From a virus, in the IMG/VR virus record IMGVR_UViG_3300005663_000004, positions 19,546 through 83,545 of that record: DNA of 64,000 bases; one strand, 5' to 3'. The position numbers and the translations under genes are program-made. Under the pieces are notes generated by a model, which made no database searches, had not been told where the DNA came from, and saw only the letters and a list, made by a program, of their open reading frames with translations. This document shows positions 8,250 to 64,000 of the stretch, in pieces (position 1 is the first letter of the stretch; every line of letters starts with the position of its first letter).

Positions 8250-8758
8250 GCTTGCACACCCCCAACGTGAGGAGAAGGAACATCATTCAACAAGGCAAAT
8301 TCACCCCATGCCTCAAGAGCAGCAACGTTGTAGGCACAGCCGGCATCTGCTTCATTCACAAAGCGCCCAAGATTCCTGTAATGTCCCGATACAAGTATTT
8401 GAGCACGCCATTTCTTCTTCGGTTTGTCCCAGTAGACACCCTTAAATCTGGAACTTCCCCTAGTCTTCTTTCGATTCGCGGCGTTTTGAGATCTCGTGCA
8501 CACGCGAAGGTTCGCAATCCTACGATTATCGAGTGTGTCATGGTTTACATGGTCAACGAGCACCCCCTTGGGCGCTTTCATGATCTGCCTATGCATATAG
8601 ATTGTCCCTGGTCTCTCTCCTTTGACTCTGGGGACATTGCGCACCGCTTTTGGACCACCTTGCATTGTACACACATGCCACCTGTACTTCGATAGCTCCT
8701 CGTAGTCTTCGTCATCCACTTTTGTCGCATAGCCCCTAGTGAGCTTGATTATTCTCAT
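8246..8758 (-). CDS. HNH homing endonuclease with AP2 domain (copy 1)
   Basis: 170 aa from ATG 8758, which follows the preceding stop (TAGCATG). Order: N-terminal KLTRGYATKVDDEDYEELS segment; HNH core (VDHVNHDTLDNRRIANLR, Asp-His and Asn-His intact) near residues 68-85; RGSSRFKGVYWDKPKKKW AP2 DNA-binding domain; C-terminal YNVAALEAWGEFALLN. Free-standing HNH-AP2 genes are mobile and typically target conserved phage sequences. It sits between two sugar-cassette genes with a 4-nt overlap to the glycosyltransferase. A longer frame to 8797 exists but overlaps the upstream gene. Confidence 0.92.
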   Translation of the reverse strand: MRIIKLTRGYATKVDDEDYEELSKYRWHVCTMQGGPKAVRNVPRVKGERPGTIYMHRQIMKAPKGVLVDHVNHDTLDNRRIANLRVCTRSQNAANRKKTRGSSRFKGVYWDKPKKKWRAQILVSGHYRNLGRFVNEADAGCAYNVAALEAWGEFALLNDVPSPHVGGVQA

Positions 8759-8759
8759 G

Positions 8760-9542
8760 CTACAGCTTCTTGATCTCTGCCAGAATGCGAGCAGCAACCT
8801 GTGCAGGAGTCCATATTCCTGGGGTGTTAAGGATCGTCATGCAGCGTTCTCTTCCTTGAGGAGATTCGTATGGATAACCCTCCCTCGGAGATAGGTTTCG
8901 ATCGAGATAGATCCACCAAGGACGGGTGGGAGCCATTGCATCCTCAACGGAATTTCTGATAGACTCCGTAGGGGCTATTACAGACACAACAACGTTTCTG
9001 TATTTAACTAATTGCTTGGCCAGCCGTGCCACTCGAATGTTATGGGCAAGTCTCTCTTCGATCGAGAAACCAGCTCCTAGAGAGATCGAAGCTCTCATCT
9101 CATCCCCATCCAGGTTCACAGCATTCAAGGGACCCAGGAGCTCGTTTGCTATCGTGGTCTTCCCAGCACCGGAGTTTCCCGTTATCCAATAAATGCGATG
9201 TCCCCCGTCTTCTCGTATCGCCGTTCCGCTCACGTTGGACGCTCTTGGCGCGCTCACTTTTCGAACTTCCCATCCTGGAGTCCTTCCGTAGACGACCTCA
9301 ACGATGTTTGGCACATTGATGATTATCATGCGCCCTTCTGCAATCTCCTCCTTGTAGAAGGCCTCGAAGGCTACCGTTCTTTGCGCTTGAGTGAAGGGGT
9401 TGCTGTCTGTTCCATCCTCTTTTCTTAGGGCGATGACAACGCGCCGTCCCTCACTGAGAACCTTGTCTATCAACGCGAAGTGCCCCCTGTGTGGCATCGG
9501 CACCTGAAAGCGTCCCAGAATCAAGCTATACTCTTTGGACAT
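8760..9542 (-). CDS. Bifunctional nucleotidyltransferase / adenylylsulfate kinase-like protein
   Basis: 260 aa from ATG 9542, chosen for its strong AGGAGGGT site (an upstream ATG at 9590 has a poorer one). N-terminal domain: NMNAT/cytidylyltransferase-type GRFQVPMPHRGH with the HxGH-like motif. C-terminal domain: P-loop GNSGAGKTT, NLDGDEMR, FSIEERLAHNIRVARLAK and IAPTESIR, the set found in APS kinases that make PAPS, the sulfate donor. A sulfotransferase lies four genes away, supporting sulfation of a glycan. The nucleotidyltransferase substrate is not determined; NMN adenylyltransferase or sugar activation are possible. NadR-type kinase is a less likely alternative for the C-terminus. Confidence 0.88.
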   Translation of the reverse strand: MSKEYSLILGRFQVPMPHRGHFALIDKVLSEGRRVVIALRKEDGTDSNPFTQAQRTVAFEAFYKEEIAEGRMIIINVPNIVEVVYGRTPGWEVRKVSAPRASNVSGTAIREDGGHRIYWITGNSGAGKTTIANELLGPLNAVNLDGDEMRASISLGAGFSIEERLAHNIRVARLAKQLVKYRNVVVSVIAPTESIRNSVEDAMAPTRPWWIYLDRNLSPREGYPYESPQGRERCMTILNTPGIWTPAQVAARILAEIKKL

Positions 9543-9593
9543 ATTGACCCTCCTGAAGGTCCACCAGTTGCTTTGAATCCATTCCGTCATCCT

Positions 9594-10163
9594 CTAAAGC
9601 CCAGTCGCTCCTGGCACAGAAAAAATGATTGGGCGCAAAAGCTGTTCGTACTGTGGCGGATACGCTACGATTGCATCGCGGACCAACATAACGATGCTAT
9701 CCTCTAACCTACAACCGATCTCCTCCAGTGTTGGCCACCCCTCAAGCCCCTGTCGGCCAAATAGACGGGCGTCATCGATGAAGATGACATGGTTATACGG
9801 ATGCTGTGCGATAGCATCTAGCTCTTCTCTGATCGGAGGCCTGTGCTTACCATCGTGAGCGTCGAGCCAGAAGAGGATAGGCCCTTCTTTTACAAGACTT
9901 AGAAGATCTGGAAGGAGAGAACCGGAGTCTCCCCAAAGGGCAACGAGGTTCTCCACCCCCGCCTCCTCTGCTACATGCTGCATCGCCAGGTATCCCTTCA
10001 TGCTCTTCTCAATCGTATAAACATCCCTGAAGCGGGATGCAGCCCACATAGCTGTATCACCTCGATGCGTACCAGTTTCGATGAACACGTCAATGGACAA
10101 TGCTTCAGCAATTTCTTCGACCAGTTTTTGGAGATCCTCGTTTGCCGATAGCGATCCACCCAC
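9594..10163 (-). CDS. Methyltransferase-like protein (paralogue 1 of 3)
   Basis: 189 aa, GTG start at 10163 with AAGGAG upstream. FIETGTHRGDTAMWAA looks like a SAM-binding motif I with YTIE following, and FWLDAHDG and FIDDARLFG mark later strands, as in FkbM/class I methyltransferase relatives. Two paralogues lie at 28223-28786 and 31497-32114. Placed in the sugar cassette, it probably modifies a sugar or sugar-linked group. The exact reaction is unknown. Confidence 0.75.
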   Translation of the reverse strand: MGGSLSANEDLQKLVEEIAEALSIDVFIETGTHRGDTAMWAASRFRDVYTIEKSMKGYLAMQHVAEEAGVENLVALWGDSGSLLPDLLSLVKEGPILFWLDAHDGKHRPPIREELDAIAQHPYNHVIFIDDARLFGRQGLEGWPTLEEIGCRLEDSIVMLVRDAIVAYPPQYEQLLRPIIFSVPGATGL

Positions 10164-10178
10164 CTGCAGGTCTCCTTG

Positions 10179-11144
10179 CTACAAACTTTCCTGAAGTACG
10201 TTATCCTCAATCCACCTATAGGTAACTGAGAGTCCTGCCTCTAAGGGAATGCTAGGAGCCCACTTTAGGATTTCGTTGATTCTATCGTTGTTCGAATTTC
10301 GACCACGAACACCCTGTGGACCATCGATATGCTTCTTTTGTATCCTCACACCTGCAATCTCTGCGATGATGTCGGCAAGCTCATTGATAGAGACTAGCCT
10401 GTCACTGCCCAAATTGAGAGGATACGGGTAGTCCGAGCGCATAAGCCTAAGAATCCCCTCGATGCAATCATCTACCAGCATAAATGATCGCGTTTGCTCT
10501 CCATCACCCCAGATCTCTATCCTCGGTTCCCAGGAGGTTCTTTTTCCTTCAGCAATCTTTCTGCAAAGAGCAGCAGGAACCTTCTCTGCATTATCATTCC
10601 AAGATCCCTTCGGCCCATAGACATTATGAAACCGAGCAATCCGCGTAGTCATCCCATAGTCTTCTGCATAGGAAAGGCAGAGTTGCTCCATACACAGCTT
10701 CTCTAGGCCATAGGTATCCTGAGGATCGGCAGGGTAAGCATCATCCTCTTTTAGTCCTAGAATGTCTGTCCGTTCCTGCTTGAAATTTGGGTAGACACAG
10801 GCGGAGGAACTGTAGAAGAAGCGACCTACTCCGCCTGTCCTTGCAGCCTCAAGAATATGTGTGTCTATAAGTAGGTTGTCATGCAGAATGGATGCGCTGT
10901 GAGAGGAGATGAAGCCCATACCTCCCATAGAAGCCGCCAAGTGGTATACCTCATCTATTCCATCCACAGCGATATAGCACGTGGCTCTGTCTCGCAGATC
11001 ACCAAAGAAGAAATCGTCGCATGGAATAGGGCCATACCGTGGTTTAGCAATGTCTGCTCCACGTACCCAATACCCTTCTTCCTTCAACCGCTTTGCCAAA
11101 TGTCCGCCGATGAACCCTGACACACCTGTTACAAGTGCCTTCAT
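10179..11144 (-). CDS. GDP-mannose 3',5'-epimerase-like NAD-dependent epimerase
   Basis: 321 aa short-chain dehydrogenase fold. Features: TGVSGFIGGHLA Rossmann motif, HLAASMGGMGFI, YSSSACVYP with the catalytic Ser/Cys region, DTYGLEKL (YxxxK), ARFHNVYGPKGSWN, WGDGEQTRSFM and GPQGVRGRNSNN. These match plant and bacterial GDP-mannose 3,5-epimerases (GDP-mannose to GDP-L-galactose/L-gulose) better than generic dTDP- or UDP-sugar epimerases. The ATG overlaps the stop of the upstream dehydrogenase gene by 4 nt. It supplies an activated sugar for the cassette. Confidence 0.88.
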   Translation of the reverse strand: MKALVTGVSGFIGGHLAKRLKEEGYWVRGADIAKPRYGPIPCDDFFFGDLRDRATCYIAVDGIDEVYHLAASMGGMGFISSHSASILHDNLLIDTHILEAARTGGVGRFFYSSSACVYPNFKQERTDILGLKEDDAYPADPQDTYGLEKLCMEQLCLSYAEDYGMTTRIARFHNVYGPKGSWNDNAEKVPAALCRKIAEGKRTSWEPRIEIWGDGEQTRSFMLVDDCIEGILRLMRSDYPYPLNLGSDRLVSINELADIIAEIAGVRIQKKHIDGPQGVRGRNSNNDRINEILKWAPSIPLEAGLSVTYRWIEDNVLQESL

Positions 11145-12463
11145 CTTTGCTCCGATACACCAATGTAGCGCATCTTGATCTTCTTGGAGTTCTGTATTTT
11201 GCCCCTGAGAATTCTCCAGCAGTCAACAACTGTTCCCTGCTTCTGCCTCTGCTCGAAATCAGACTGAGAAATCTGGGCAAACTGCTCTGTGCGATTTGCG
11301 ATGATTATGACGTCTGCCTTTTTCAAACAAGCCCCTAGAGACCAAGGCTCAATGAATTCTGGAAGAGACATCTGCCTCATCCTCTCGTCATATCCTACAA
11401 CTCTTACATCCTTAGCTGCCATCCTTCTAGCTAGTTCTATGGAAGGCGATCCAATCATACATGGAGTTCCCGATTTGTATGACAACCCTAGAATGGCAAC
11501 AGTACCTTTTTCACTGAGACATCCGGTAGCAATATCAACAAGTCTTCTCCACCTAGCCTTATTGGATCTGCTTACAGCCCATGGAAAGTTGCCTGGGATA
11601 CAAAGATCTTCTACAATCTCTTCAAAGGCCCTCACATCTCGAGGAAAGCAGGTTCCCCCATACGGCATTCCCGCTATGAAGTATTTCTTTCCGACCCTAG
11701 AGTCAGATCCAACAGCAGCGGAGACCAAGTCGATATCACCACCAGGGAAGCGCTCACAAATGTCCCCAAGAAGATTTGCGAATGCTATCTTCGAAGAAAC
11801 AAACATGTTGATCCCCATCTTGACAATCTCTGCATTAGTGAGTGACATCTGGTGAATCTGATGTGGTTCTACCAGCATTGTTGAGAGTATAAAGCCGACC
11901 AAACCAACTCCAGCCTGCTGACCAGACTGTCCCACGATAACAAGGTTCGGGTTCAGGTAGTCTTCTATGACACTGCCTATGGCAACAAGCTCAGGATTGT
12001 ATGCAAGTTCCCAGCTGTCACCACAGGCGTATCCCGACGCCTGTTCGATCGCCGGCTTGATCACTTCCTCCATCGTTCCTGGCATGAGCGTACTCATCAC
12101 GGAGATGATTCTACTGTCTCCATATGGCACTGTACCTCGGATGGCCTTTCCGATCCGCTTGCACACATCCAGCACATATTCATGAGAAAACTTCCCATTT
12201 TTCAGGCTGGGTGTTGGTACCAGTACACCAATGACATCTGCACCATGCACACCTTGCTTCAGGTCAGTGGACGCGGAAAAGCTCCCCTTTACAGCGGACA
12301 TCATTTGCTTCATGTGGGGCTCATCCACAGGAGAAATCCCTGCGTTAATCTTATCCACAACCTTTCTGTTTTTGTCTATTCCAATGACATCATGGCCTCT
12401 ACTGGCGATGGCAGCCGCTATCGGTGCCCCCAACTTTCCCAGCCCAACTATTGTGATGTTCAC
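11141..12463 (-). CDS. UDP-glucose/GDP-mannose 6-dehydrogenase family protein
   Basis: 440 aa, GTG start overlapping the preceding stop (GTGA). N-terminal NAD motif VGLGKLGAPIAAAIASRGH, central AEIVKMGINMF, catalytic-cysteine motif PYGGTCFPRD, and C-terminal LGLSYKSGTPCMIGSPS. Length and order match NDP-sugar 6-dehydrogenases, which oxidise C6 to uronic acid using two NAD+. Whether the substrate is UDP- or GDP-linked cannot be read. The adjacent GDP-mannose epimerase-like gene makes a GDP-sugar possible. Confidence 0.92.
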   Translation of the reverse strand: MNITIVGLGKLGAPIAAAIASRGHDVIGIDKNRKVVDKINAGISPVDEPHMKQMMSAVKGSFSASTDLKQGVHGADVIGVLVPTPSLKNGKFSHEYVLDVCKRIGKAIRGTVPYGDSRIISVMSTLMPGTMEEVIKPAIEQASGYACGDSWELAYNPELVAIGSVIEDYLNPNLVIVGQSGQQAGVGLVGFILSTMLVEPHQIHQMSLTNAEIVKMGINMFVSSKIAFANLLGDICERFPGGDIDLVSAAVGSDSRVGKKYFIAGMPYGGTCFPRDVRAFEEIVEDLCIPGNFPWAVSRSNKARWRRLVDIATGCLSEKGTVAILGLSYKSGTPCMIGSPSIELARRMAAKDVRVVGYDERMRQMSLPEFIEPWSLGACLKKADVIIIANRTEQFAQISQSDFEQRQKQGTVVDCWRILRGKIQNSKKIKMRYIGVSEQR

Positions 12464-13086
12464 CAGTTTTCCCTAATCCATATTGTCGTTTTCTTATCCC
12501 TCTTCCCATGCGTGAACCAGTTTCTTTGCACGAGAATCGGCTTGGTTGCTCCAAGAAACTTGCCTTTCACGCTTTTTGCTCTTTCTGCGCCTATTCGCTC
12601 CGCTGTCCATGGAGTAGCATGTCTTCGTAGCAACCGACGAAACACACCTGTTTGCCAAATGGTTCCCTTTTGTGAAAACAAAAACGGATTATCTTTGGCC
12701 ATCCTAACGAAAAGAGCATCGCGTTTGTACGGCGTCCCCTTCGTTGTGAATCTCTTCGACAGCCTAACCATGCAGACTGAGGAATCTTCAGTTAGGGCAG
12801 CTAGCGCCCGAGCAATCCTTCGCGGATAAATCTCTACGGGGATGAGATCATCTAGGCAGAGCATCATTAGCTCGTCATGCATGTGATGGCGAAGGAACAA
12901 ATGCAGATTGTCCGCAAAGCCAAGATCTTTTCCCAGCTTGATGACCGTTGCATCAACGTCTATGTTCTCTTCGTTTGTGATGACAATCACGTCGTAGGGA
13001 CACTGTGGCCAAAGTTTCCGAAGAAAATGAATGTGTGCCGGGATAGTATGGGCATACTTGTCACAAGTGGGAATGACAATCTTCAC
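12460..13086 (-). CDS. Small glycosyltransferase-like protein (tandem copy B)
   Basis: 208 aa, GTG start in a GTGA overlap. Begins MKIVIPTCDKY and contains LMMLCLDDLIPVEI, a GT-A-like Asp pair. It resembles the next upstream gene along its length (same start, HxHFLxKLWPxCPY, LxDDL, C-terminal NWxxHGKRDK), so the two are tandem paralogues. Likely transfers a sugar in the cassette; acceptor unknown. Confidence 0.7.
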   Translation of the reverse strand: MKIVIPTCDKYAHTIPAHIHFLRKLWPQCPYDVIVITNEENIDVDATVIKLGKDLGFADNLHLFLRHHMHDELMMLCLDDLIPVEIYPRRIARALAALTEDSSVCMVRLSKRFTTKGTPYKRDALFVRMAKDNPFLFSQKGTIWQTGVFRRLLRRHATPWTAERIGAERAKSVKGKFLGATKPILVQRNWFTHGKRDKKTTIWIRENW

Positions 13087-13742
13087 CAGTGACGCTCAAT
13101 CCACCTGGTTACGAACTTGTCCTTTCGTCCCCGATGGGAGATCCAATTCATCTGCTCCAGGGTAGCGTGGGTAGCCCCAAGGTTCATCCCTCCTCTACTT
13201 CTTAGCCTGGCAGTGCCATTTCCTTCTGTGCGTGTTGATGTCTCTCCTCCCTCAAGAATCGATTGATGAACTGACGATCTCCACAGGGTGGCCTTGTTTG
13301 AGTACGTATACCTATCTCTGCGCATATGCACGTAGATATTGTCAGGCCCATAGCGATCGTGTGGCTTTTCTAGTGGTCGCTTGACCCAACGCTCCGCCAG
13401 CCGAATCTGATTGACGACACGATCTGCAGAGACTACTGTTACTGCCTCCTCGATGAGAACGCCATCAATATGAAACGGGACCAAGTCATCCATGCACAAG
13501 ATGAAAAATTGATCATCTTGAAGGAACCTTTTATGCGTCTCAAGAAAGTTGCTGGCCCACAGCCTATCTTGACCAAGGTGCTCTATCCTAGCATTGATTT
13601 CCTTGGCATGAGGAACGGGAGCAGATCCTCCAACGACCACCAGCACCTCGTATGGGCAGGAAGGCCACAGCTTGTGGAGGAAGTGAACATGTGCGTGAAT
13701 CGTATGCACATACTTGTCGCAGGTGGGGATGACAATCTTCAT
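13083..13742 (-). CDS. Small glycosyltransferase-like protein (tandem copy A)
   Basis: 219 aa, ATG start overlapping the sulfotransferase stop (ATGA). Starts MKIVIPTCDKY like its downstream neighbour; FFILCMDDLVPFHI supplies the presumed metal-binding aspartates. The C-terminal half (YSNKATLWRSS, GATHATLEQMNW) is shared with copy B. The divergence suggests an old duplication with different specificities. The family is only weakly recognisable. Confidence 0.7.
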   Translation of the reverse strand: MKIVIPTCDKYVHTIHAHVHFLHKLWPSCPYEVLVVVGGSAPVPHAKEINARIEHLGQDRLWASNFLETHKRFLQDDQFFILCMDDLVPFHIDGVLIEEAVTVVSADRVVNQIRLAERWVKRPLEKPHDRYGPDNIYVHMRRDRYTYSNKATLWRSSVHQSILEGGETSTRTEGNGTARLRSRGGMNLGATHATLEQMNWISHRGRKDKFVTRWIERHW

Positions 13743-14491
13743 TTGTACCCCCAGCGAGCCATGTATTTTTTGCAGCTTCTTTCAATCATCCTCACCTGAG
13801 TGTGATTCAGCCAGGTTTTCCAGTGGCCAGAAGTTCCGAACACGACAGCAGGAAGAGAAGGGAGCACCGGGTGCTCTCTGGGGGGATTCTCCCCTGCCTT
13901 CTCCAGCTTCCTTCTCTTTTTCCAGTACTCATCTTTTGCCTTCTGCTGATCTGGCAACCTGAATGGGTTGGTAAGTGTCCTTGCCTCTTTTAGGGAGATG
14001 GCGATGCCCAAGAAAGTGGCGATCCGCAATGCCTCTGCAGATAGATCCTCAATCATCACCTCAAACTTTGAGACGTGGATCATGTTTCTTGGAATTTTAT
14101 CTACCCACATGTCAAACCAGCCAAGCCACATGGGAAGCTTTTCATTTATCACTGTCTTCCCAGAAAACTCACCGATCTTCCCAGAGCGTCTTGCTCGCTC
14201 CTGCATGGAGACGAAGATGTCTCTAGGATCTCGAACAGTTCCTACCACCCGAATGCGCCCCTCCTTTAAGAACCGCGCAGCTGTCTCTGACTCGTCTGGT
14301 AGATACCGAAAGACTTTGCAGATGACGAGCTCGTCTTCGTCCTTGTCGTGCTCCACCAGCCTACTCTCCTTGTGATAGCCTATCCCCCTTCCCCTGTTTG
14401 CGTGTTCAACTATGGCAGCCGCTATTCTATTCTGCGTTGTTGATCCTGTACGATACGTCCCTGTGACGAATACCCATATAGGTGCACTCAT
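13739..14491 (-). CDS. PAPS-dependent sulfotransferase-like protein
   Basis: 250 aa, ATG after AGGAGGGT. The N-terminal VFVTGTYRTGSTTQ fits the 5'-phosphosulfate-binding loop. VVGTVRDPRDIFVSM fits the 3'-phosphate-binding motif (RxPxD, then Ser). The C-terminal HWKTWLNHTQVRMIE region is also typical. These enzymes move sulfate from PAPS to a sugar or protein hydroxyl. The APS-kinase-like gene in the same operon could provide PAPS. The acceptor is unknown, most likely a glycan made by the cassette. Confidence 0.83.
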   Translation of the reverse strand: MSAPIWVFVTGTYRTGSTTQNRIAAAIVEHANRGRGIGYHKESRLVEHDKDEDELVICKVFRYLPDESETAARFLKEGRIRVVGTVRDPRDIFVSMQERARRSGKIGEFSGKTVINEKLPMWLGWFDMWVDKIPRNMIHVSKFEVMIEDLSAEALRIATFLGIAISLKEARTLTNPFRLPDQQKAKDEYWKKRRKLEKAGENPPREHPVLPSLPAVVFGTSGHWKTWLNHTQVRMIERSCKKYMARWGYK

Positions 14492-15448: not shown

Positions 15449-15468
15449 GGGAGGGCCGAAGCCCTCCC
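15449..15468 (-). terminator. C(UUCG)G hairpin, terminator-like
   Basis: On the minus strand GGGAGGGC-TTCG-GCCCTCCC forms a perfect 8-bp stem with an extra-stable UUCG tetraloop, 25 nt after the solitary repeat and 22 nt before the methyltransferase start. The following T run is short (TTATC), so it may terminate partially or act as an RNA 3'-end stabiliser or processing barrier. Confidence 0.7.
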
Positions 15469-15493: not shown

Positions 15494-15530
15494 GTTTCAA
15501 TCCCCATCCACCTCTGTGGGTGGATGCAAC
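15494..15530 (-). repeat. Solitary CRISPR-type repeat (copy 1)
   Basis: 37 nt read on the minus strand: GTTG, stem arm CATCCACC, loop CACAGA, arm GGTGGATG, GGG, then the 8-nt tag ATTGAAAC typical of type I/III CRISPR repeats. It matches the copy at 60529 at 30 of 37 positions; the differences are the six loop bases and one stem base that keeps pairing (A-U versus G-U). No second repeat follows within spacer distance. It lies between capsid and methyltransferase genes in a late mRNA. Confidence 0.88.
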
Positions 15531-15551: not shown

Positions 15552-16985
15552 TTACCACTCCTTGTAGTAGCTTGGCGGCGTCGGGTAGTACTCGTCTCCA
15601 CCCTTCTCGAAGTACGGGCTGGATGGGAAGGGCTCACGCAGATGCTGGAGCGGCTCGTACATGATGTTCTCGAGACGACCGGCTAGTTGGGGAGTCCTGA
15701 GCACCACTCGGGGCTCAATTTTCCCCTGGAACTTGAAACAGTAATTCAAGTTCTGCATGCTCCACATGTATCGGCCCCCATCGGTAACCCAAAACTGTCC
15801 CTTGTTCCGTAGCACAGCCAGATCGCCCTGAGCCTGTGAGTAGTCCAGATACTCCCAGTACAACGTCCTCATCCCCTTCGCCCGAAGCGGAAGGATGTAG
15901 ATGTCGCTGGCAAACTGACCAGGGATCAGGTTTGCATTGGTCGCGTTATTGTCTTCGAAAATACCGTCATCAGTGATGACCGGAACCTGGAGACCGTTGA
16001 TCCAGAGGTACTTTCCCCTCCGCATTTCGTCTCTCATGTTCACATTCGTCGCATCATTCATGATCACGACATTCGTACCCGCAGAGTTTGCACATCGATC
16101 GGTGAGATACTGGCAGGGCCATACGGCGCTCAGCTCGAAGAAAAGCTGCGGTCGCATAGCAATGACCCAGTCCACAGGATCGAGGCTCATGCGCTCGGCG
16201 TTGTGGGTCAGATACTGCATCATCATCGAGAGATACTGAACGATGCTAGGAGAGGCTCCATCGATGCTGTTGAATCCAAAGTCTTTGATGTCTGAATCCA
16301 AAGCAGGGCAAGGAGACTGGCTGAGTGCGTCAACCTTTCCAGTCGAGACCAGGATCTCAAGTCCAGGAAACTCCGCATATCCGCCGTTGGTGTTGTTCAC
16401 AGGGTTGCCCTGGAAAAGCATCCTCGTAAGCCACCGCTGAAACTCAATGCCGATGATGACGAGCTGCGACTGAACAACAGAGTTCAGCCATCCGCCCTTG
16501 GGAACACCTTCCTGAGTCAACAGCTGATGACCCTCACCAATGACATCACCTAGAAGGCGAAGATCTGTGGTGAGTTTGTTATTCAACACCTGCATTAGCG
16601 TGTTGACTTCCATCTCTTTCGAGCTTCGTGCCACACGGCCAAAGGCAGCAGTCTGATGACAGACCTCGAGAACACCACCAGGGGCGTCATCACAGGGGCC
16701 ATCCGGCTCAGCCGATCCATCCCCCTCAAAGCCGGTGAGGAAGGGGTAGATTGGGTTCAGGTAGACTGTTGGGATTGCCGGAATCATACCCGACATGCCC
16801 CGAGGAGAAATAGACGCATTGATAACCGTGTCTTCAAGACCAAAGTTGCTGAAGAAGCCCTTTGGTCCGAAGACGAGCTGTGCATTAGGAACACCGGAGA
16901 TCGCCTTTTGCTGGATTTGATTACCAGCGAGGAGGGCGAGAGTCTTGTTGATGCCCTCCAAAATTGCAACTGTTTGCCTATCCAC
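15552..16985 (-). CDS. Major capsid protein (probable)
   Basis: 477 aa from GTG 16985, preferred because GGAGGG lies 7 nt upstream (GTG 17000 has no site). Sits right after the protease-scaffold gene, where HK97-fold capsid genes lie. Soluble mixed protein with an N-terminal helical segment (VAILEGINKTLALLAG) and a C-terminal Pro/Tyr-rich tail; no enzyme motif. Seven Cys are unusual and could allow crosslinks. Identification is by position and size; the fold is not directly visible. Confidence 0.72.
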   Translation of the reverse strand: MDRQTVAILEGINKTLALLAGNQIQQKAISGVPNAQLVFGPKGFFSNFGLEDTVINASISPRGMSGMIPAIPTVYLNPIYPFLTGFEGDGSAEPDGPCDDAPGGVLEVCHQTAAFGRVARSSKEMEVNTLMQVLNNKLTTDLRLLGDVIGEGHQLLTQEGVPKGGWLNSVVQSQLVIIGIEFQRWLTRMLFQGNPVNNTNGGYAEFPGLEILVSTGKVDALSQSPCPALDSDIKDFGFNSIDGASPSIVQYLSMMMQYLTHNAERMSLDPVDWVIAMRPQLFFELSAVWPCQYLTDRCANSAGTNVVIMNDATNVNMRDEMRRGKYLWINGLQVPVITDDGIFEDNNATNANLIPGQFASDIYILPLRAKGMRTLYWEYLDYSQAQGDLAVLRNKGQFWVTDGGRYMWSMQNLNYCFKFQGKIEPRVVLRTPQLAGRLENIMYEPLQHLREPFPSSPYFEKGGDEYYPTPPSYYKEW

Positions 16986-18993
16986 TTTTGTTCCCTCCAC
17001 CGAGGAATGTGTCCATTAGGGCATCGCCCATGTCCTGGACAACACCTGCCCCGACGCTTTCTTGGTCGGCCTTTTCCTTCGCCGCTACAGTAGCATTAGG
17101 ATCAACGGTTTTTGGATCGGTCGACGGACGAGTAAGCGATGCGCGAGTCGATTGATTCCGTCGCAGCGCCTGTACCTCAAATGAGACGGAGGCGAGTTGG
17201 TCAGACATCTCTTTCACCAAGCCGGCTAGAGCTTCCTGCCCTTCGTCAGCAGTGAAATTCGGTGGATCGGAGGCGACTTCTTTGGCCTTTTTCTTGGCCT
17301 TGCCGTCCTTACCATCCTCGTCGTCTTCGTCTTCCTCTTCATCTTCCTGTTTCTTCTTCTTGGCCTTCTCAGCCAAGGAGAGGAAGGCTACCTTGAGTTC
17401 ACAGTCTGGCAGGTCACCCATCGCCTTTATGAACAAGTCATTTGGGTCAGGTTCCTGGGTGTCTTCCTTCTCCTCCTGGTCGGGAATGTGTGACACGAAG
17501 ACAGCAGCACTCTTGAGTATCTGCTTGTGATCTTCGTTTTCCTCCGCGTCGACCATCATCAAGAGCTCTTTCACCAGGTTATCTCGTGAGATCTCCTCGT
17601 CCTTGAAGATGGCATCCGGCTCGACTGACTTAGCATTGATTCCATCCGCCTGAGAGACTGCTTTCGTGGCCAGTTCATCGCCGAGCAGCTCTCGGAGAAT
17701 GGCAATCTTGTGTTGCAACATTTCTGGTTCTCCTTCAGTAGTGATCCGAGAGAAGACATTCGCAGACTGCTGGACAGGAAGTAATGATCTCTCTAGGATC
17801 GCAATGCTGTGATAAACGTTATTGACTCTTTTTCCTCGCACATCGACGTTGCGTTCCTTATCTGTTGGGTCAGAAAGGAATGCAATGCTGATCGCCCATC
17901 TTTCAGGGTGCCTCGATGTTTCTTTCCTGGCCTGCTGGCTAACTGCATCGTTGTACCACAGGCCGGATTCTATCAGACACAACCCATCGTGCATCGCAAA
18001 GTCGCAGTTGCCGAAGTCGACACCCCTCACGTGCCAAAAACGCAGTGGACCACGGTCTTTGACCACACTGTCTGCAGACCTCTCCAATGCCTTGGAGGAT
18101 ACGATGTCAAACTCACGGTCCATGAAAGCAGTGGACGAAATCGATACCCAACGATATTGTCCATCATGCTGCTTTGTGGTGAAGAACACGTTCTGCCCCT
18201 TGGTGATCGCAGGCTCTGGTGCTAACTCCTTCGTCAGCATCTGCCCCAACGAGGACCACACCTGGGAGAACTTATCCTTCCAACTCTTCGGCTTTGCTCG
18301 CGTTCCCATGAGAGGTGCTCCACAATCGGGGCAGACCTTGTCTACACAAGCTGCACCCTTCGAGTGGTCTCCGGAGTAGCCGCACTCCTTGCAAACACAG
18401 GTGCCTACTCCATCCTCTAGGACCGCTTTCTCTTGCCCTCCTGATTTTATATCCAACAGAGCAGGGGCTGGAAGAACACTGGTCCCGTCTGATTTCCGCG
18501 TCTCCTCGGTCACCGACGCTCCCTCTTCCTGCTCAGAAAGAACTTTGTCCACAGACAGGTTTACTTGCCTGTGCGAATGCTCCATGCCCCATCCCTTGTG
18601 TGTTTTCCCCGCAAGGTAGGTTGCAATCTTGTCCCACGTTTCCGGAGTTATCTCTGCTACCTCGTCAAGCCATACCAAAGGAGATCCTAAGGCATTCTCC
18701 TTTTTCACAGGCCATGACACCACACCAACTCGCGGAAGCTGCAGGTGATGCTGCACGGAACCGTCTTTGGGGATAGCACCCGTGTTCATCCCAAGTCGCC
18801 ATGCGAGATCCGCGACCAGTTGAACAAGGAGGTCCTTCTGCCTACGCTCCTCAGAAGACTCAATCGCACCTATTTGCGCCACTGCGGCCTCCCTACTATC
18901 GTGACATCCCATTGACTTCCCTGCGGCTGTTCCGTCTGGGGACTTCTTGAACACACAATGCTGTCCGCCTTGCATAACGATGGTGTATGGCAT
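16978..18993 (-). CDS. Fused prohead protease and scaffold protein
   Basis: 671 aa. N-terminal 1-70 small domain (GQHCVFKKSPDGTAAGKSMG). A four-cysteine zinc ribbon sits near 200-230 (CKECG...CPDCG). The protease region (about 270-420) has STAFMDREFDIVSSKAL, HDGLCLIESGLWYND and WAISIAFLSDP, resembling XkdF/phage serine proteases of the prohead. The C-terminal third is highly charged with KKKQEDEEEDEDDEDGKDG and a coiled coil, as expected of a scaffold. It lies immediately before the capsid gene and overlaps its start. Catalytic residues are not certain. Confidence 0.75.
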   Translation of the reverse strand: MPYTIVMQGGQHCVFKKSPDGTAAGKSMGCHDSREAAVAQIGAIESSEERRQKDLLVQLVADLAWRLGMNTGAIPKDGSVQHHLQLPRVGVVSWPVKKENALGSPLVWLDEVAEITPETWDKIATYLAGKTHKGWGMEHSHRQVNLSVDKVLSEQEEGASVTEETRKSDGTSVLPAPALLDIKSGGQEKAVLEDGVGTCVCKECGYSGDHSKGAACVDKVCPDCGAPLMGTRAKPKSWKDKFSQVWSSLGQMLTKELAPEPAITKGQNVFFTTKQHDGQYRWVSISSTAFMDREFDIVSSKALERSADSVVKDRGPLRFWHVRGVDFGNCDFAMHDGLCLIESGLWYNDAVSQQARKETSRHPERWAISIAFLSDPTDKERNVDVRGKRVNNVYHSIAILERSLLPVQQSANVFSRITTEGEPEMLQHKIAILRELLGDELATKAVSQADGINAKSVEPDAIFKDEEISRDNLVKELLMMVDAEENEDHKQILKSAAVFVSHIPDQEEKEDTQEPDPNDLFIKAMGDLPDCELKVAFLSLAEKAKKKKQEDEEEDEDDEDGKDGKAKKKAKEVASDPPNFTADEGQEALAGLVKEMSDQLASVSFEVQALRRNQSTRASLTRPSTDPKTVDPNATVAAKEKADQESVGAGVVQDMGDALMDTFLGGGNKSG

Positions 18994-28798: not shown

Positions 28799-29290
28799 TC
28801 ATGCGTTGTTAGGTGAAGCAAATTCACCAAAGTATTCCACAGCGGCTAAGTCATAAGCACAAGCGGCATCGCGCTCGTTGGAGAAACATCCCAGGTGGTA
28901 GCGTTTGCCCTCTTTTTGTATCTGAGCGAGCCACCTGCGATCGCGCTTGTGCCAGTAAACACCCTTATATCGCGACGAACAACCAAGACGCTTCCGCGAA
29001 TTCATTAAGTTCTGCGATCTTGTGCACCTTCGAATGTTCTTTCGCTGATTATCCAGTGTATCGTGGTTTGCGTGGTCAACGTCTTCTCCTGGTTGAGCAT
29101 CAAGGATGACGCGATGCATGTAAATTATCCGGTGACCACTACCCCCATCGGCCTTCGGAGCCACACGCACTGCCCTTGGTCCACCAGCCTGCACGGACAC
29201 GGCAGCATACCACTTCCATAGCGAAAGCCACTCGTAGTCTTCATCATCTACTAGAGAAACGAAGCCTTGTGTCAGAGGAATCTCCTTCAT
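28799..29290 (-). CDS. HNH homing endonuclease with AP2 domain (copy 2)
   Basis: 163 aa. MKEIPLTQGFVSLVDDEDYE N-terminus, HNH core VDHANHDTLDNQRKNIRR with intact Asp-His and Asn-His, CSSRYKGVYWHKRDRRW AP2 domain, and C-terminal AYDLAAVEYFGEFAS. Same family as copies at 8246, 29501, 55688 and 57527. Flanked by a methyltransferase-like gene and a 64-aa gene. Confidence 0.92.
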   Translation of the reverse strand: MKEIPLTQGFVSLVDDEDYEWLSLWKWYAAVSVQAGGPRAVRVAPKADGGSGHRIIYMHRVILDAQPGEDVDHANHDTLDNQRKNIRRCTRSQNLMNSRKRLGCSSRYKGVYWHKRDRRWLAQIQKEGKRYHLGCFSNERDAACAYDLAAVEYFGEFASPNNA

Positions 29291-29500: not shown

Positions 29501-29977
29501 TCATAATTCATTAAGAAGAGCAAACTCCCCCCACTCTTTGCCTGCTCTCACATTGTAGGCTCTGGCAGCATCCTTTTCCCTATCGAAGCGACCAAGATTG
29601 GTAACATGGTTAGACACTGTTATCTGCGCTCGCCATTTCTTCCTTGGCTTGTCCCATACAACCCCTTTATATCTGCTTGAGCATCCCCTCATCTTGTATC
29701 TGTTCACAAGATTTTGGGCATGCGTACACAAGCGAAGATTTCTCTTGCAATTGAATAGCGTATCGTGATTGATGTGATCCACCTGCCTATCTGATGGAGC
29801 GTCCATAATCTGCCTGTGCATCAAAACAGTTTTATGTTCGCCATCGACGGTGACACTCCGAACAGCCCTCGGGGCATTCCTATGCATTTGAGCACACCAC
29901 TTCCACTGAGACAACCATTCATAGTCTTCGTCATCTACAAGGGCTACAAAACCTTGCGTCAGAGGAATCTCCTTCAC
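29501..29977 (-). CDS. HNH homing endonuclease with AP2 domain (copy 3)
   Basis: 158 aa. MKEIPLTQGFVALVDDEDYE, HNH core VDHINHDTLFNCKRNLR (catalytic His pair intact), CSSRYKGVVWDKPRKKW AP2 domain, AYNVRAGKEWGEFALLN end. Nearly the same N-terminus as copies 2 and 4, indicating recent spread. Confidence 0.92.
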   Translation of the reverse strand: MKEIPLTQGFVALVDDEDYEWLSQWKWCAQMHRNAPRAVRSVTVDGEHKTVLMHRQIMDAPSDRQVDHINHDTLFNCKRNLRLCTHAQNLVNRYKMRGCSSRYKGVVWDKPRKKWRAQITVSNHVTNLGRFDREKDAARAYNVRAGKEWGEFALLNEL

Positions 29978-34323: not shown

Positions 34324-34337
34324 TATTCCTCCTCTTG

Positions 34338-34409
34338 TAGGACGCCGGGGAATTGAACCCCGATTGGAGGGTTGAAGGCCCTCTAGCCTATCCGTTAGCT
34401 GAGCGCCCC
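34338..34409 (-). tRNA. tRNA-Glu (UUC), copy 1
   Basis: 72 nt, no encoded CCA. Acceptor GGGGCGC/GCGUCCU (two G-U), D stem AGCU/GGCU, anticodon stem GAGGG/CCCUC with loop CCUUCAA, anticodon UUC (34376-34374), T arm CGGGG-UUCAAUU-CCCCG. Position 33 is C rather than U, which is unusual and may weaken decoding. Confidence 0.85.
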
Positions 34410-37986: not shown

Positions 37987-38075
37987 ACCGAAATCAGGAG
38001 GCAGTCAGCTTGCCCGATCTCAGGTTGAAAGAATCTGTCTGTGGCCCCCATGGAGACCCTAGTAGAAACTCCCAG

Positions 38076-38147
38076 TGAGGCGACGGCGAATTGAACGCCG
38101 ATTGGGAGGTTGAAAACCTCCTATCCTAGCCATTAGATGACCGCCCC
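38076..38147 (-). tRNA. tRNA-Glu (UUC), copy 2
   Basis: 72 nt. Acceptor GGGGCGG/UCGCCUC, D stem AUCU/GGAU, anticodon stem GGAGG/CCUCC with loop UUUUCAA, anticodon UUC, T arm CGGCG-UUCAAUU-CGCCG. Its first 15 nt overlap the 3' end of the HNH gene (38133-38147), whose last codons are read from the tRNA acceptor and D-arm sequence. Confidence 0.9.
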
Positions 38148-55687: not shown

Positions 55688-56173
55688 ATGAAAGAGATTC
55701 TGCTCACTCAAGGATATGTTGCTCTCGTCGACGATGAAGACTACGAGTGGTTATCACAGTGGAAATGGTATTCACACCGGGGGAGTAGTAGTGGTCCTTG
55801 GGCAGAACGAAATTCTCCGCCGGATGACAACGGGAAGAGAAGTCCTGTGCTTATGCACAGACAAATAATGGACGCTCCTTCAGATAGAGACGTGGATCAT
55901 CACGATCATTGTATGCTGAATAATCAAAGGGCAAACCTGCGCGTGTGTACAACGGCGCAAAACATGGCAAATAGGCGCAAGTCGAGGGGATGCTCCAGTA
56001 GATTTAAGGGAGTGTGCTGGGACAAAGAGCACAAAAAATGGAGAGTGCGGATTGGAGTCAATGGCTGTTCAAGGCATCTTGGATACTGTGACGACGAAAT
56101 GAAGGCTGCTCTTGTCTACAACAAAGAGGCAATAAAGGAGTGGGGAGAGTTCTCCCTCCCAAATAATGTATGA
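55688..56173 (+). CDS. HNH homing endonuclease with AP2 domain (copy 4)
   Basis: 161 aa. MKEILLTQGYVALVDDEDYE; core DVDHHDHCMLNNQRANLRV (Asp-His kept, Asn-His changed to Asp-His); CSSRFKGVCWDKEHKKW AP2; end EAIKEWGEFSLPNN. Plus strand, early operon. Confidence 0.9.
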   Translation: MKEILLTQGYVALVDDEDYEWLSQWKWYSHRGSSSGPWAERNSPPDDNGKRSPVLMHRQIMDAPSDRDVDHHDHCMLNNQRANLRVCTTAQNMANRRKSRGCSSRFKGVCWDKEHKKWRVRIGVNGCSRHLGYCDDEMKAALVYNKEAIKEWGEFSLPNNV

Positions 56174-57333: not shown

Positions 57334-57576
57334 GTGTTACTTTTGGACATCGTAGAAAGCCTCACTAACCGGGTGGCAACCCAGCCAGATGAGCGCACAG
57401 GAATAGCGAAGTGTATCTATTGCGGTGCACTCATCCTTGACGTATCTGGTCGGACTGCCCACGAACACAAAGCGTTTTGTGCCTGGCGTTTGGGTAAGGA
57501 GCTCGTACAAAAGAAGGCAAGTCGATGTGAAAGAGATCCCATTGACACAGGGCTACGTGGCTCTGGTAGACGATGA
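57334..57576 (+). CDS. Small zinc-finger protein, C-terminus overlapped by HNH gene
   Basis: 80 aa, GTG start. CIYCGALILDVSGRTAHE and HKAFC form a C2HC-type finger. The last 50 nt overlap the HNH start in another frame, so its present C-terminus (ERDPIDTGLRGSGRR) may be produced by the insertion. Confidence 0.58.
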   Translation: MLLLDIVESLTNRVATQPDERTGIAKCIYCGALILDVSGRTAHEHKAFCAWRLGKELVQKKASRCERDPIDTGLRGSGRR

Positions 57577-58009
57577 TGACTATGAGGAGCTATCTAAGTA
57601 CAAATGGCACGTGGACCTCCAGCGTAGTGGGCCTAAAGCGAAGCGAAATTCTCTCGTAAGTGAGGGGGAAGGGCAGAAGGCCATCTACATGCACCGCCAG
57701 ATCATGTATGCTCCAGCAGGAACGTATGTAGATTATAAGGATCACGACACGCTGAACAATCAGAGAGTGAACCTGCGTCCCTGCACGAGATCGCAGAACG
57801 CAGCCAATCAGCGCCCACAGGAGGGCTGCTCGTCCAGGTTCAAGGGAGTGTACTGGCACAAGGCAGCTAGAAAATGGCACGCCGCTATTCTCGTGGAGGG
57901 GAAGCGGAAGTATCTTGGCCTCTTTGTTGATGAAGTGAGAGCGGCCCAGGAGTACAACAAGGCCGCTCTCCAGCATTTCAAGGAGTTTGCCTTGCTGAAT
58001 GTCATATGA
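57527..58009 (+). CDS. HNH homing endonuclease with AP2 domain (copy 5), altered active site
   Basis: 160 aa from GTG 57527. MKEIPLTQGYVALVDDDDYEE; the core VDYKDHDTLNNQRVNLR has Tyr in place of the first catalytic His and Asp in place of Asn; AP2 part CSSRFKGVYWHKAARKW; end AALQHFKEFALLN. Cleavage is probably impaired. Confidence 0.88.
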   Translation: MKEIPLTQGYVALVDDDDYEELSKYKWHVDLQRSGPKAKRNSLVSEGEGQKAIYMHRQIMYAPAGTYVDYKDHDTLNNQRVNLRPCTRSQNAANQRPQEGCSSRFKGVYWHKAARKWHAAILVEGKRKYLGLFVDEVRAAQEYNKAALQHFKEFALLNVI

Positions 58010-58089: not shown

Positions 58090-58800
58090 ATGTTTATCGA
58101 GACCGAGTTCCAGGTACATCTGACGACGTTGACAACTATGTTCGGGTCCTGCCCAAACGATCCCGGCATCTACGCGGAGCACTTGCAAGACGAGATAGAC
58201 TCCAGTACACCTGAAGCTCGTGCAGAGATTGCTGCTCTGCCATACGACGAGGAAGAGGGTGACAAGACAGACCGCACCACTGTGTTCCTACGTGTTGGGG
58301 ATCTGCCTGGTATCCACAGCCACGTTATGAAAGGTTTCTTCAAGAGTGCTTGCGGAGCCTTGTGGGTAGTGGGTGGCACATTCTCGTCCAAAGTGCGAGC
58401 ATACAAGAAACGCATCGACACTCTCATCTTCATCGAACCCCAGATCATCCCTCTCCATCCAGCAGACAACGAAATCAAGAACCTGACTACGTACATAGAT
58501 AAGACAACAGGACAGGTGGTTTGCGTTCGTCCACTGAGAGCAGAAACGGCTAAGGGACCCCGCGTGGCCTTGGCTAGATCCGAAGTGCTTCCACCAGGGA
58601 CAGAACTGACATTCAAGATGATCATCGTGGGCAAGGTACCCAAGCTTTGGCGTGAGACAACCAAGAAGACACCCCTCCACGAGGAACTGCTGCACGAATG
58701 GCTGAGCTATGGTAGGAGACATGGATTAGGTTCTTGGAGAAATGCTGGGTGGGGCCAGTTCACGTATGAGATGAAGAGGCTCACTCCAGAACCCAGCTAG
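58090..58800 (+). CDS. Unknown protein with glycine-rich C-terminus (RAMP-like?)
   Basis: 236 aa, AGGAGG before ATG. Two segments recall Cas RAMP proteins: SACGALWVVGGTFSSKVRA, and the C-terminal WLSYGRRHGLGSWRNAGW (G-rich loop). No catalytic residues are evident. A phage protein family with this C-terminus is also known to me from other phages. The RAMP relation is an inference. Confidence 0.6.
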   Translation: MFIETEFQVHLTTLTTMFGSCPNDPGIYAEHLQDEIDSSTPEARAEIAALPYDEEEGDKTDRTTVFLRVGDLPGIHSHVMKGFFKSACGALWVVGGTFSSKVRAYKKRIDTLIFIEPQIIPLHPADNEIKNLTTYIDKTTGQVVCVRPLRAETAKGPRVALARSEVLPPGTELTFKMIIVGKVPKLWRETTKKTPLHEELLHEWLSYGRRHGLGSWRNAGWGQFTYEMKRLTPEPS

Positions 58801-59277
58801 GGCATTGGTCGACCAGAGGCGCTAGGAAAGGCAAAAGCCTCGATCGTAGCTCGCTGCGGCGGCCATGTCAAGTTCAGCTGCGGCATAGATAGCGTGGCTT
58901 TGGCATTGATAGCCTTGATGTGCTTTGGCGAGGGTAGCAGAGGGATGCATGGCAACGGCAGAAGAGGTGCTAGGAGCAGCAAAGGCGTATTGAGGTGACG
59001 AGTGTGCAGCAAAGGCGTCTCCAGGTGCGGTAGGGAACGCAACAGCGTCTCAAGGCGAGGACGGTGTTGCATCGGCTCATCAAGGTGGAGCATCGTCGGG
59101 GCAAAGGCGGGGCAGGGATGGCACGAAATGCGGAGGATCAAGCAGCCTGCATAGGCACGATAGGGTATCGTTCGCGCAGGCTGAGCTGAGCACGATCTTG
59201 TGAGGATACGCACTGGTGAAGGAAGGCACAGCAAAGCATATACACGCCTGAATGTCCAGTGAAAAAAGGAGAATCGC
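58801..59277 (+). other. Non-coding stretch with degenerate ~31-33-nt repeats
   Basis: 477 nt without a plus-strand gene. Between about 58965 and 59095 at least four units share GCAGCAAAGGCGTCT(C)AGGTG-like words at about 33-nt spacing. A minus-strand open frame crosses it because the repeats lack stops, which makes it look coding. Confidence 0.62.
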
Positions 59278-59677: not shown

Positions 59678-59706
59678 TTGACAGCGCGGTTGAAGTATGA
59701 TACTAT
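59678..59706 (+). promoter_or_regulatory. Sigma70-type promoter
   Basis: TTGACA (59678-59683), 17 nt, TACTAT (59701-59706; 4 of 6). Its -10 box contains the ATG of the longer candidate start (59697), so translation should begin downstream. Confidence 0.66.
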
Positions 59707-59732: not shown

Positions 59733-60149
59733 TTGGGATACGACATGCCCGACATACAAATCTTCTGGAAAAGGTCTCGTGGTGGATTGGAGTTTGGTGC
59801 GCCTATCACCTGCGTAACGTCTCACGTACTGGTTGATGGGGAGGTGGTTGAGTTTCCAAGGGCAGTAGCTCAGCTATTTCCTGGTGGATCAGCACAGGTA
59901 TGCATCAGTCAGTCCAAAGAAATCAGCTGGATACTAGCAGGACCAAACAGAAGGTTCGTTCAAATGACAGCCACTCTGTGGCTGTTCTATCTGGCATCCC
60001 TTAACGATGCTGCAATGGACAGCCTTACCTTGGACCTAGAAGATAAGGGGGAAGATGACACGGAAGAAGTGATGACAACACTCGACAGCATTCAGGCGTT
60101 CCTAAAATCAGAAGATAAGAAGAAAGGTACAACAGATGAAGCTGAGTGA
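59733..60149 (+). CDS. Unknown early protein
   Basis: 138 aa from TTG 59733, chosen because GGAGGTGA lies just upstream and the ATG at 59697 is inside the promoter. Alpha/beta; ISWILAGPNRRFVQMTATL; acidic C-terminus. Unknown. Confidence 0.6.
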   Translation: MGYDMPDIQIFWKRSRGGLEFGAPITCVTSHVLVDGEVVEFPRAVAQLFPGGSAQVCISQSKEISWILAGPNRRFVQMTATLWLFYLASLNDAAMDSLTLDLEDKGEDDTEEVMTTLDSIQAFLKSEDKKKGTTDEAE

Positions 60150-60471
60150 GTTTCAGGCAGGACACAAGGCGCTCGCCACCGAGATAGCCAAGATCATAAG
60201 AGCGGATATTTTCGAGACTACGTCCAAGCAACGAACATACACCCTCAACCGGCTGGAAAAGATGTCAGCATCGATCAGACAGGCAGACAAGATCTGCGCC
60301 CTGCTTGACACAGAGCCCAATTCTCCAGGGGAGGTCGCTCCTGTTTTTGGGGCGGCCATCGAGGATGCTGTGCCGGTCACGAATGTGGTCAACATATCCG
60401 CCCCAAGCAAGGAAGACGAGTCTCCGACAGAAGAGAAACCTACTACCAAAGCAGGTCGACGCAGTAAGTAG
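60136..60471 (+). CDS. Small helical protein, unknown
   Basis: 111 aa. Helical N-terminus (LATEIAKIIRADIFE, RLEKMSASIRQADKI), Pro/Glu/Thr-rich tail with GRRSK end. Last gene before the solitary repeat. Confidence 0.66.
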   Translation: MKLSEFQAGHKALATEIAKIIRADIFETTSKQRTYTLNRLEKMSASIRQADKICALLDTEPNSPGEVAPVFGAAIEDAVPVTNVVNISAPSKEDESPTEEKPTTKAGRRSK

Positions 60472-60528
60472 CCCGATCGAGGAAGGTGAGACTCTCTTGA
60501 GTGGCAGGCATCTTGGGAGTTTGGAGAA

Positions 60529-60565
60529 GTTGCATCCGCCTCTGCGGGTGGATGGGGATTGAAAC
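60529..60565 (+). repeat. Solitary CRISPR-type repeat (copy 2)
   Basis: 37 nt: GTTG, arm CATCCGCC, loop TCTGCG, arm GGTGGATG (one G-U pair), GGG, tag ATTGAAAC. Same layout and 30/37 identity to copy 1 with loop replacement. It ends 9 nt (AAACAAACG) before the start codon of the 148-aa gene, so it lies in that gene's mRNA leader; no second repeat follows. Confidence 0.88.
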
Positions 60566-60574
60566 AAACAAACG

Positions 60575-61021
60575 ATGTATAGAGTAGGCATCTTGGAAGT
60601 GTGGCAAAGAAACATTCTTGTCGAAGCCGAAACGAAAGCAGCGGCTGTTGAGGCTGTGCTATCTTCCAAGGTGCCTGCTATGCAAGAAAGTCTGACCTAC
60701 TTACGTATCTTAGATCCAAAGGAGTGGATGGTAGAGTCCACAGAGCCAGAGGAAATTCTAGCAGAAGCACTCGGTCTTGTTGGAGCACTATGCTCCATTA
60801 TACAGATGAGTGGAGGAGACAAACGTGAGGTACTAGAGAGAGCAAAAGCGTGGGAAAACAGGTTCCTCGCATTTGCACAGGATGCTCAAGAGGCAGATGA
60901 ACAACCAAGCAGAGTACAAGGCAACGAAGACGGAACAGATGAGCCTGACTTCAGTGGAGATGCTCTTCTCGGGGATAGTAAAATCCCTAAGCAAGCTGGG
61001 ATATGGGACGTCAGTGGATGA
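60575..61021 (+). CDS. Unknown protein immediately downstream of the solitary repeat
   Basis: 148 aa. Helical core (KAAAVEAVLSSKVPAMQE, EALGLVGALCSIIQM), acidic tail. It has no separate Shine-Dalgarno; the repeat's GGGG block is 17-20 nt upstream. The last third overlaps the peptidase gene. Unknown. Confidence 0.62.
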   Translation: MYRVGILEVWQRNILVEAETKAAAVEAVLSSKVPAMQESLTYLRILDPKEWMVESTEPEEILAEALGLVGALCSIIQMSGGDKREVLERAKAWENRFLAFAQDAQEADEQPSRVQGNEDGTDEPDFSGDALLGDSKIPKQAGIWDVSG

Positions 61022-61376
61022 CCCGAGAATCCCAGATTACGCGGAGGCAAGGTTACTTCGCAGCGATTTCCTAGTGGCAGTGAGACGAAGAGATACTTCC
61101 GACATGTGCTACTCGCTTGCTCATGAGCTTGGACACATCATCTCCAATCCGCGAAACGATCTGGTATCGGCATCGGAGATCAAAGCGGATCTGTTTGCCT
61201 GCTCTCTCCTCCTCATGTTTGGGATTGACAAGTCAAAAGAGTCAGCAGAGTACGTTCTCGGGTGGTTGAGGTATGGCCCAATGAGAGATACCTTCTGGAT
61301 CGCCCAAAGGGAGCAAGAGATGAGACAGAGAGCCACAGATGAAGCACACAGAATCTGGAGGTACATTAAAGAGTGA
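60897..61376 (+). CDS. ImmA/IrrE-type metallopeptidase
   Basis: 159 aa from ATG 60897 (other starts at 60873 or 60936 possible). Motif SLAHELGHIIS (HExxH with a downstream zinc-binding Glu in ASEIKADLFACSLL), the pattern of ImmA/IrrE proteases that cleave repressors. Starts inside the end of the preceding gene. Might control a phage or host regulator. Confidence 0.8.
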   Translation: MNNQAEYKATKTEQMSLTSVEMLFSGIVKSLSKLGYGTSVDDPRIPDYAEARLLRSDFLVAVRRRDTSDMCYSLAHELGHIISNPRNDLVSASEIKADLFACSLLLMFGIDKSKESAEYVLGWLRYGPMRDTFWIAQREQEMRQRATDEAHRIWRYIKE

Positions 61377-63570: not shown

Positions 63571-64000
63571 AACAGTCATCTCCGTCTCCGACATCAGAAC
63601 ATTCCTCTCCTGCCGGCAGAAGTGGCAGTGGCAATCGAGGAACGGTGAGCACCTACGATCACGGCACCCAAGCAAGCACCTGTTCCTTGGATCAGTGATG
63701 CACGAGGCGCTGGCTGCGTACTACGGTCCGCAAGCTGCCCCTGAAACAACCGATATGCTATCCAGCGCCAAGTCTGCTCTTCTCGACGCCATTATCGATC
63801 GAGCGAAGACTATCAAGGAGGATCTATACGGAGACTTCCCCCAGCCGATCCAAGACTATGCTATCCTAGCCATGCGAATGATCGAGCAGTACGAACGTTG
63901 GGCACCTTCAGTTGACAAGTTCGAGGTGATCGATGTAGAGTATGAGTTAGCTGTTGACTACACCTACTGGCTCTTCATCGGGTTCATCGACGCCATCGTA
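63563..64000 (+). CDS. PD-(D/E)XK nuclease, RecB/Cas4-like (3' end outside window)
   Basis: First 146 codons. SVSDIRTFLSCRQKWQWQS, FLGSVMHEALAAYY and VEYELAVDYTYWLFIGFIDA match the N-terminal half of the RecB/Cas4 nuclease fold (His in helix 1; Gly-Phe-Ile-Asp). The ExK strand should follow beyond the edge. In phages it acts in DNA end processing or recombination. Start overlaps the previous stop. Confidence 0.85.
   Translation, partial: MNRTVISVSDIRTFLSCRQKWQWQSRNGEHLRSRHPSKHLFLGSVMHEALAAYYGPQAAPETTDMLSSAKSALLDAIIDRAKTIKEDLYGDFPQPIQDYAILAMRMIEQYERWAPSVDKFEVIDVEYELAVDYTYWLFIGFIDAIV

Follow-up and report, generated by a model that had tools for sequence, protein, structure and literature searches.

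The early operon around SRU1

The window, a stretch of 64,000 nucleotides of phage DNA, comprises bases 19546–83545 of an 83,545-base IMG/VR virus record. The same 77 bases are found at both ends of this record (L006:1–77; window 63924–64000), indicating that the assembly of the phage genome is probably complete and circular. Early genes are carried on the + strand and late genes, terminase among them, on the − strand. Two tRNA-Glu genes, both with the anticodon ttc, are located at 34337–34409 and 38075–38147 (−). A motif like KEIPLTQGYVALVDDEDYEWLSQWKW is common to the ORFs at 8246–8797 (−), 28799–29290 (−), 29501–29977 (−), 55688–56173 (+) and 57425–58009 (+), which look like a multi-copy family, perhaps of HNH/AP2 homing-type proteins. 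The region 58800–59180 is rich in repeats and devoid of an obvious gene, with an early gene on either side.

A probable operon promoter, TTGACA-17-TACTAT (59678–59706, +), is matched at the same place by TTGACA-17-TATGAT in G001, a 71-kb phage relative whose head gene is 67% identical to that of the phage. In both genomes the shared form TTGACA-17-TAnnAT stands immediately 5’ of the first gene of the group. Further along this group, a 111-aa gene (60136–60471, +), with a syntenic G001 homologue of 28% identity, ends 57 nt before a perfect, solitary 37-nt CRISPR-type repeat, GTTGCATCCGCCTCTGCGGGTGGATGGGGATTGAAAC (60529–60565, +), designated solitary repeat unit 1 (SRU1). Downstream of the repeat lies a 148-aa ORF (60575–61021, +), whose syntenic G001 homologue shows 33% identity and whose N-terminus is weakly DpnD/PcfM-like (E = 2e-4, below the Pfam cut-off). 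This ORF is overlapped by a gene for an M78 (ImmA/IrrE)-type metallopeptidase with an HELGH motif (60873–61376, +, start position approximate), identified from a weak profile match below cut-off, a match to phrog_87 (E = 7.5e-5) and a syntenic homologue in G001. The order of genes is kept in G001 (142 aa – 92 aa – 142 aa – M78-like peptidase), which was also the sole match when the 148-aa protein was used as a query for additional phage relatives. Predicted structures of the 148-aa protein and of the head-gene protein were too poor for a structural search.

The position of the repeat is exactly that claimed in the earlier note, with SRU1 ending at 60565, the ATG of the 148-aa ORF at 60575 and a gap of 9 nt between them. 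The same note had assigned the repeat to the leader of this gene; it lies instead between two cistrons, past the point (60471) where the 111-aa gene stops and ~820 nt downstream of the probable promoter, inside a polycistronic early unit. The 9 nt available between repeat and ATG hold no promoter-like site, the feature that the note had named as speaking against control of the gene through the repeat. Its description of the 148-aa gene as lacking its own ribosome site holds insofar as the normally spaced pairing is weak (−3.6 kcal/mol), yet this is not special to the gene, as similarly weak sites precede the operon genes at 59697, 61618 and 60136 and the G001 homologue (L013:4039).

A strong Shine-Dalgarno (SD) sequence, GGAAGGTGA (~60482–60491), is present upstream of SRU1. 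It is followed by a GTG at 60501 and the translated stretch MAGILGVWR, which matches the present start MYRVGILEVWQR and makes this region look like a former start of the 148-aa gene that has since been displaced. SRU1 is bracketed by the two copies (83%) of a 24-nt direct repeat, at 60506–60529 and 60586–60609 (+), the second copy falling inside the start of the 148-aa gene. In G001 the start of the corresponding gene is separated from the preceding stop by 6 nt that contain no repeat. Given this repeat-free syntenic gene pair and the shared place of the promoter, SRU1 most likely entered the early operon as an insertion between neighbouring genes. The simplest history would be an insertion with partial duplication of the gene start that stranded the old ribosome site upstream, which would account for a gene seemingly without a ribosome site of its own. 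The start of the G001 gene (L013:4098–4190) contains two strong local hairpins, ATAGGCAT...ATGCCTAT and GGGCGAACG...CGTTCGCCC (fold z −4.0), so that structured RNA at the start of this gene may be of older date.

A second repeat and the type I-C class

A second solitary repeat, SRU2 (15494–15530, −), absent from the earlier note, was located in the late head module. It is preceded by the stop of a head-module gene (15552–17000, −), putatively encoding the major capsid protein as judged from position and conservation, with terminase nearby. A GC-rich UUCG hairpin (15449–15468, −) lies 25 nt after SRU2 and ahead of the next gene. At the corresponding place in relatives the GC-rich hairpin is kept and the repeat is absent. 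As flanking features are thus kept and the repeat is missing in relatives at both places, SRU1 and SRU2 are probably both added elements. Elsewhere in the late region, 8760–14491 (−) holds a cluster of nucleotide-sugar and transferase-like genes, including NAD-dependent dehydrogenase-like ORFs at 10179 and 11141 and a related ORF pair at 12460 and 13083.

Both repeats are full-length and intergenic, on the coding strand of their own operon and outside any array or mini-array. They are separated by 45 kb with no second repeat near either one. SRU1 forms an 8-bp stem (60533–60540 with 60547–60554; hairpin z = −2.9) followed by the 11 nt GGGATTGAAAC. No further copy of SRU1 with three or fewer mismatches was found in the window, and none is expected by chance. 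A covariance model (R1) built from ten repeats of the same class was used to search 141,717 bases of the phage and its relatives. SRU1 gave the best score (47.7 bits, E = 9e-12), followed by SRU2 (46.0 bits, E = 3e-11), with a runner-up of only 15.3 bits that is the reverse side of SRU2; as a test of class these scores are partly circular, since the model repeats were gathered through patterns derived from SRU1 and SRU2, although the arrays themselves are unambiguous. No repeat of the class was found by the model in the phage relatives, SRU1 had no match in Rfam, and a literature search for the exact repeat yielded no occurrence. Other viral contigs (L003:4470–4506 and L004:10720–10756) likewise hold lone repeats of this class, GTTGCACCCGCC...GGCGGGTGnGGATTGAAAC, as further solitary-repeat candidates.

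SRU1 and SRU2 are identical at 30/37 positions and differ only at positions 10 and 13–18. Six of the seven differences occupy all six loop positions, a placement with a chance probability of 3e-6, and the seventh changes a G·U pair of the stem to A-U in SRU2. The placement of these differences points to selection on the hairpin and ends of the repeat. It bears equally on the very unlikely possibility that both repeats are evolutionary debris, acquired by recombination with a host array and now functionless. The flanking 24-nt direct repeat and displaced gene start are as expected for an insertion or partial duplication, and independent capture from two arrays could yield the same pattern of differences; neutral decay, however, would not be expected to keep every stem pair and 30 of the 31 non-loop positions while all six positions of the loop diverge.

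A looser scan of cellular genomes recovered look-alike arrays of 37-nt repeats with a GTTGCATCC start and a GGATGaGGATTGAAAC end in Deltaproteobacteria, Chloroflexi, Thermoactinomycetaceae and Armatimonadetes, with two more from further genome searches. The stems of these array repeats covary, with 80/80 cells paired and changes on both sides in four of the eight pairs. The cas genes adjoining the arrays encode Cas3c, Cas5c, Cas8c, Cas7c, Cas4c and Cas1c, as in type I-C systems, and in one divergent look-alike system Cas8c and Cas1c were identified. Type I-C systems lack Cas6. The earlier note had proposed a Cas6-type cut at SRU1; with look-alike repeats adjoining I-C cas operons that contain no Cas6, the enzyme would be Cas5c. 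Cleavage of the I-C repeat by Cas5d/Cas5c results in an 11-nt 5’ handle (PMC5965380), the same length as the 11 nt between the stem end and the 3’ end of the SRUs. SRU1 and SRU2 are thus classified as CRISPR repeats of type I-C, the subtype being assigned by likeness of class.

An exact cellular source was sought at several levels. The SRUFinder program accepts units that are 90% or more identical to one of the known CRISPR repeats in a reference set of 17,823; in our comparison, made outside that set, the best match to the SRUs was a viral array at 31/37 (84%) and the best cellular arrays reached 30/37. The SRU-like pattern gave no match in cellular genome contigs, nor did the SRUs at up to two mismatches in 400 genomes from the phylum of the Chloroflexi isolate. 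A scan of the phyla of three look-alike genomes returned further look-alikes only and no exact repeat.

Full-length repeats with an intact 11-nt handle make a 5’-tagged RNA possible, and each repeat with its next 35 nt could in principle act as a crRNA-like guide for host Cascade, in the style of CreA or a viral mini-array, that would silence or attack DNA. We regard such a guide as highly improbable: the downstream 35-nt pieces have no match combining a TTC-PAM seed with good pairing in the phage genome or the relatives compared, neither 19-nt seed is present in other viral contigs, and no second repeat is nearby. A viral CRISPR mini-array was rejected on the grounds of single repeats 45 kb apart and no spacer-like guide match, and CreTA on those of an intact repeat and no good seed-plus-PAM match in the phage’s own genome.

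Pairing arms around SRU1

SRU1 lies among RNA segments that are predicted to pair. Arm A (60475–60519, +) is intergenic and contains the strong SD and the apparent old start. Arm B (60576–60606, +) covers the first codons of the 148-aa ORF, and arm C (60657–60709, +), also coding, is complementary to A through 60663–60709 and to B through 60657–60684, such that the two pairings are alternatives. At a threshold of 25/36 and a span of up to 500 nt, the A:C inverted repeat (29/36) has no rival in the 64 kb, shuffled sequences topping out at 24–26. Its duplex (−62.9 kcal/mol) ranks first of ~15,900 pairs of the same geometry, its own neighbouring offset aside, and 14 of 1,000 synonymous recodings equalled its strength. 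The B:C duplex (−41.5 kcal/mol) ranks approximately 11th among the ~15,900 pairs and was stronger than in all 1,000 recodings. The RNA of 60470–60720 folds with a z of −7.1, a segment picked after the inverted repeat was known; unselected 240-nt tiles there gave z values of −3.1 to −3.7, among the lower of 344 tiles and not the lowest. The SRU1 hairpin was retained in every fold spanning the whole of SRU1.

This arrangement, with SRU1 exactly between two arms that compete for C, raises the possibility of an mRNA switch, a recast form of the regulation by host CRISPR proteins proposed in the earlier note, through which the phage senses host I-C proteins. Binding or cutting by Cas5c at SRU1 would split arm A off from arms B and C, or cover the leader, so altering how the 148-aa gene and the M78 peptidase are translated. 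The singular strength of A:C, which masks the strong SD, the rank of B:C above its recodings and the z of −7.1 are all in keeping with such a switch. We nevertheless judge it unlikely. In predicted folds the SD is unpaired with a probability of 0.17–0.24 when A:C is formed and 0.62 before C is made, the AUG is free at 0.01 with A:C, where a weak hairpin forms, and 0.38 after the cut, and the leader segment opens (0.54 to 0.87 unpaired) after the predicted cut. The accessibilities of SD and AUG leave the direction of any effect ambiguous, and folding yielded no clean on/off prediction. Furthermore, A:C was equalled in recodings, the low z belongs to a segment chosen post hoc, SRU2 has no comparable arrangement of arms, and G001 has neither repeat nor arms, leaving no close relative in which compensating changes could be checked. 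In light of the recodings and the missing close relative, the arms may be a by-product of local duplication.

A stronger form of the same idea, in which a Cas5c cut between competing arms decides translation of the downstream early genes and the defence enzyme is both titrated and used as ligand by a viral riboregulator, appears distinctly doubtful. SRU1 offers a concrete system for asking if gene control in phages can work by letting host Cas nucleases cleave phage mRNAs. An origin of the unit by capture of a spacer and repeat from a CRISPR array is not supported: the direct copy abuts the repeat exactly (60506–60529), but no second repeat end lies upstream, the A:C match covers a different interval, and no TTC PAM was seen.

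A proposed decoy function and known systems

In our assessment, SRU1 and SRU2 are reasonably likely to be candidates for Racr-like RNA anti-CRISPRs, decoys against host type I-C systems made both early and late in infection. SRU1 would be carried within the early operon transcript and SRU2 within the late head-gene transcript, as gene arrangement suggests. The hairpin of the repeat RNA would, by analogy with I-C biochemistry, be bound and cut by host Cas5c, and the cut fragments, with Cas5c and Cas7c attached, would trap Cas proteins in useless complexes, presumably weakening CRISPR interference at both stages. Cutting would also split the operon mRNA just 5’ of the 148-aa gene; some effect on this gene, and likely on the M78 peptidase, is thus to be expected where I-C Cas proteins are present, probably as a side effect, although such control could also be what SRU1 is for. 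As the second repeat stands in another context, behind a head-module gene, a decoy explains the pair better than regulation does. Against this, the searches recovered no host with a matching repeat, and, where a dedicated small RNA would bring its own promoter and terminator, SRU1 has neither. If the decoy reading is correct, I-C decoys are dosed in early and late transcripts from inside a coding operon, with no separate small-RNA gene.

Racrs inhibit I-F, I-C, I-E and V-A systems (PMC10651486), and the SRUs resemble them, RacrIC1 in particular (Camara-Wilpert et al. 2023, PMC10651486), as lone phage repeats outside genes with an intact hairpin and ends, of a repeat class that fits I-C systems, in which Cas5 cuts. 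The transcript may likewise include protein genes, RacrIC1 being co-transcribed with acrIC5 as a bicistronic RNA (PMC10651486). However, RacrIC1 follows an acr gene, whereas SRU1 has a gene on either side within a long mRNA able to fold; no known anti-CRISPR was matched among the neighbours of SRU1 in libraries with poor Acr coverage, and an acr neighbour is frequent and not required. RacrIF1, the best-studied Racr, forms a subcomplex without the 5’ handle (PMC10651486), whereas the phage SRUs are full-length, a difference that counts against a decoy. A further difference from RacrIC1 is that the phage carries two copies, one early and the other late.

Repeats of I-C arrays share with the SRUs their length, both ends, an 8-bp covarying stem and an 11-nt tail, and differ in forming arrays rather than lone units, in being identical at 25–30 of 37 positions, and in carrying GAGGATT where the phage has GGGGATT. 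CreA of CreTA (PMC9458426, PMC8501985) is similarly located away from arrays, and its RNA interacts with Cas proteins and may influence a neighbouring gene. CreA repeats, however, are degenerate, usually come paired and act as guides that repress a toxin RNA’s promoter (PMC9458426, PMC8501985), whereas SRU1 is intact, single and has no detectable target. In the leader-repeat hairpins of type VI arrays (PMC13187072), upstream RNA also pairs around a repeat and could alter access of the nuclease; in those arrays the repeat itself is the pairing partner of the leader and Cas13b is blocked (PMC13187072), while SRU1 sits inside a long predicted helix whose partner strand is coding sequence. The SRUs thus join the known solitary repeat units and Racr candidates, among which their placement inside an operon is unusual.
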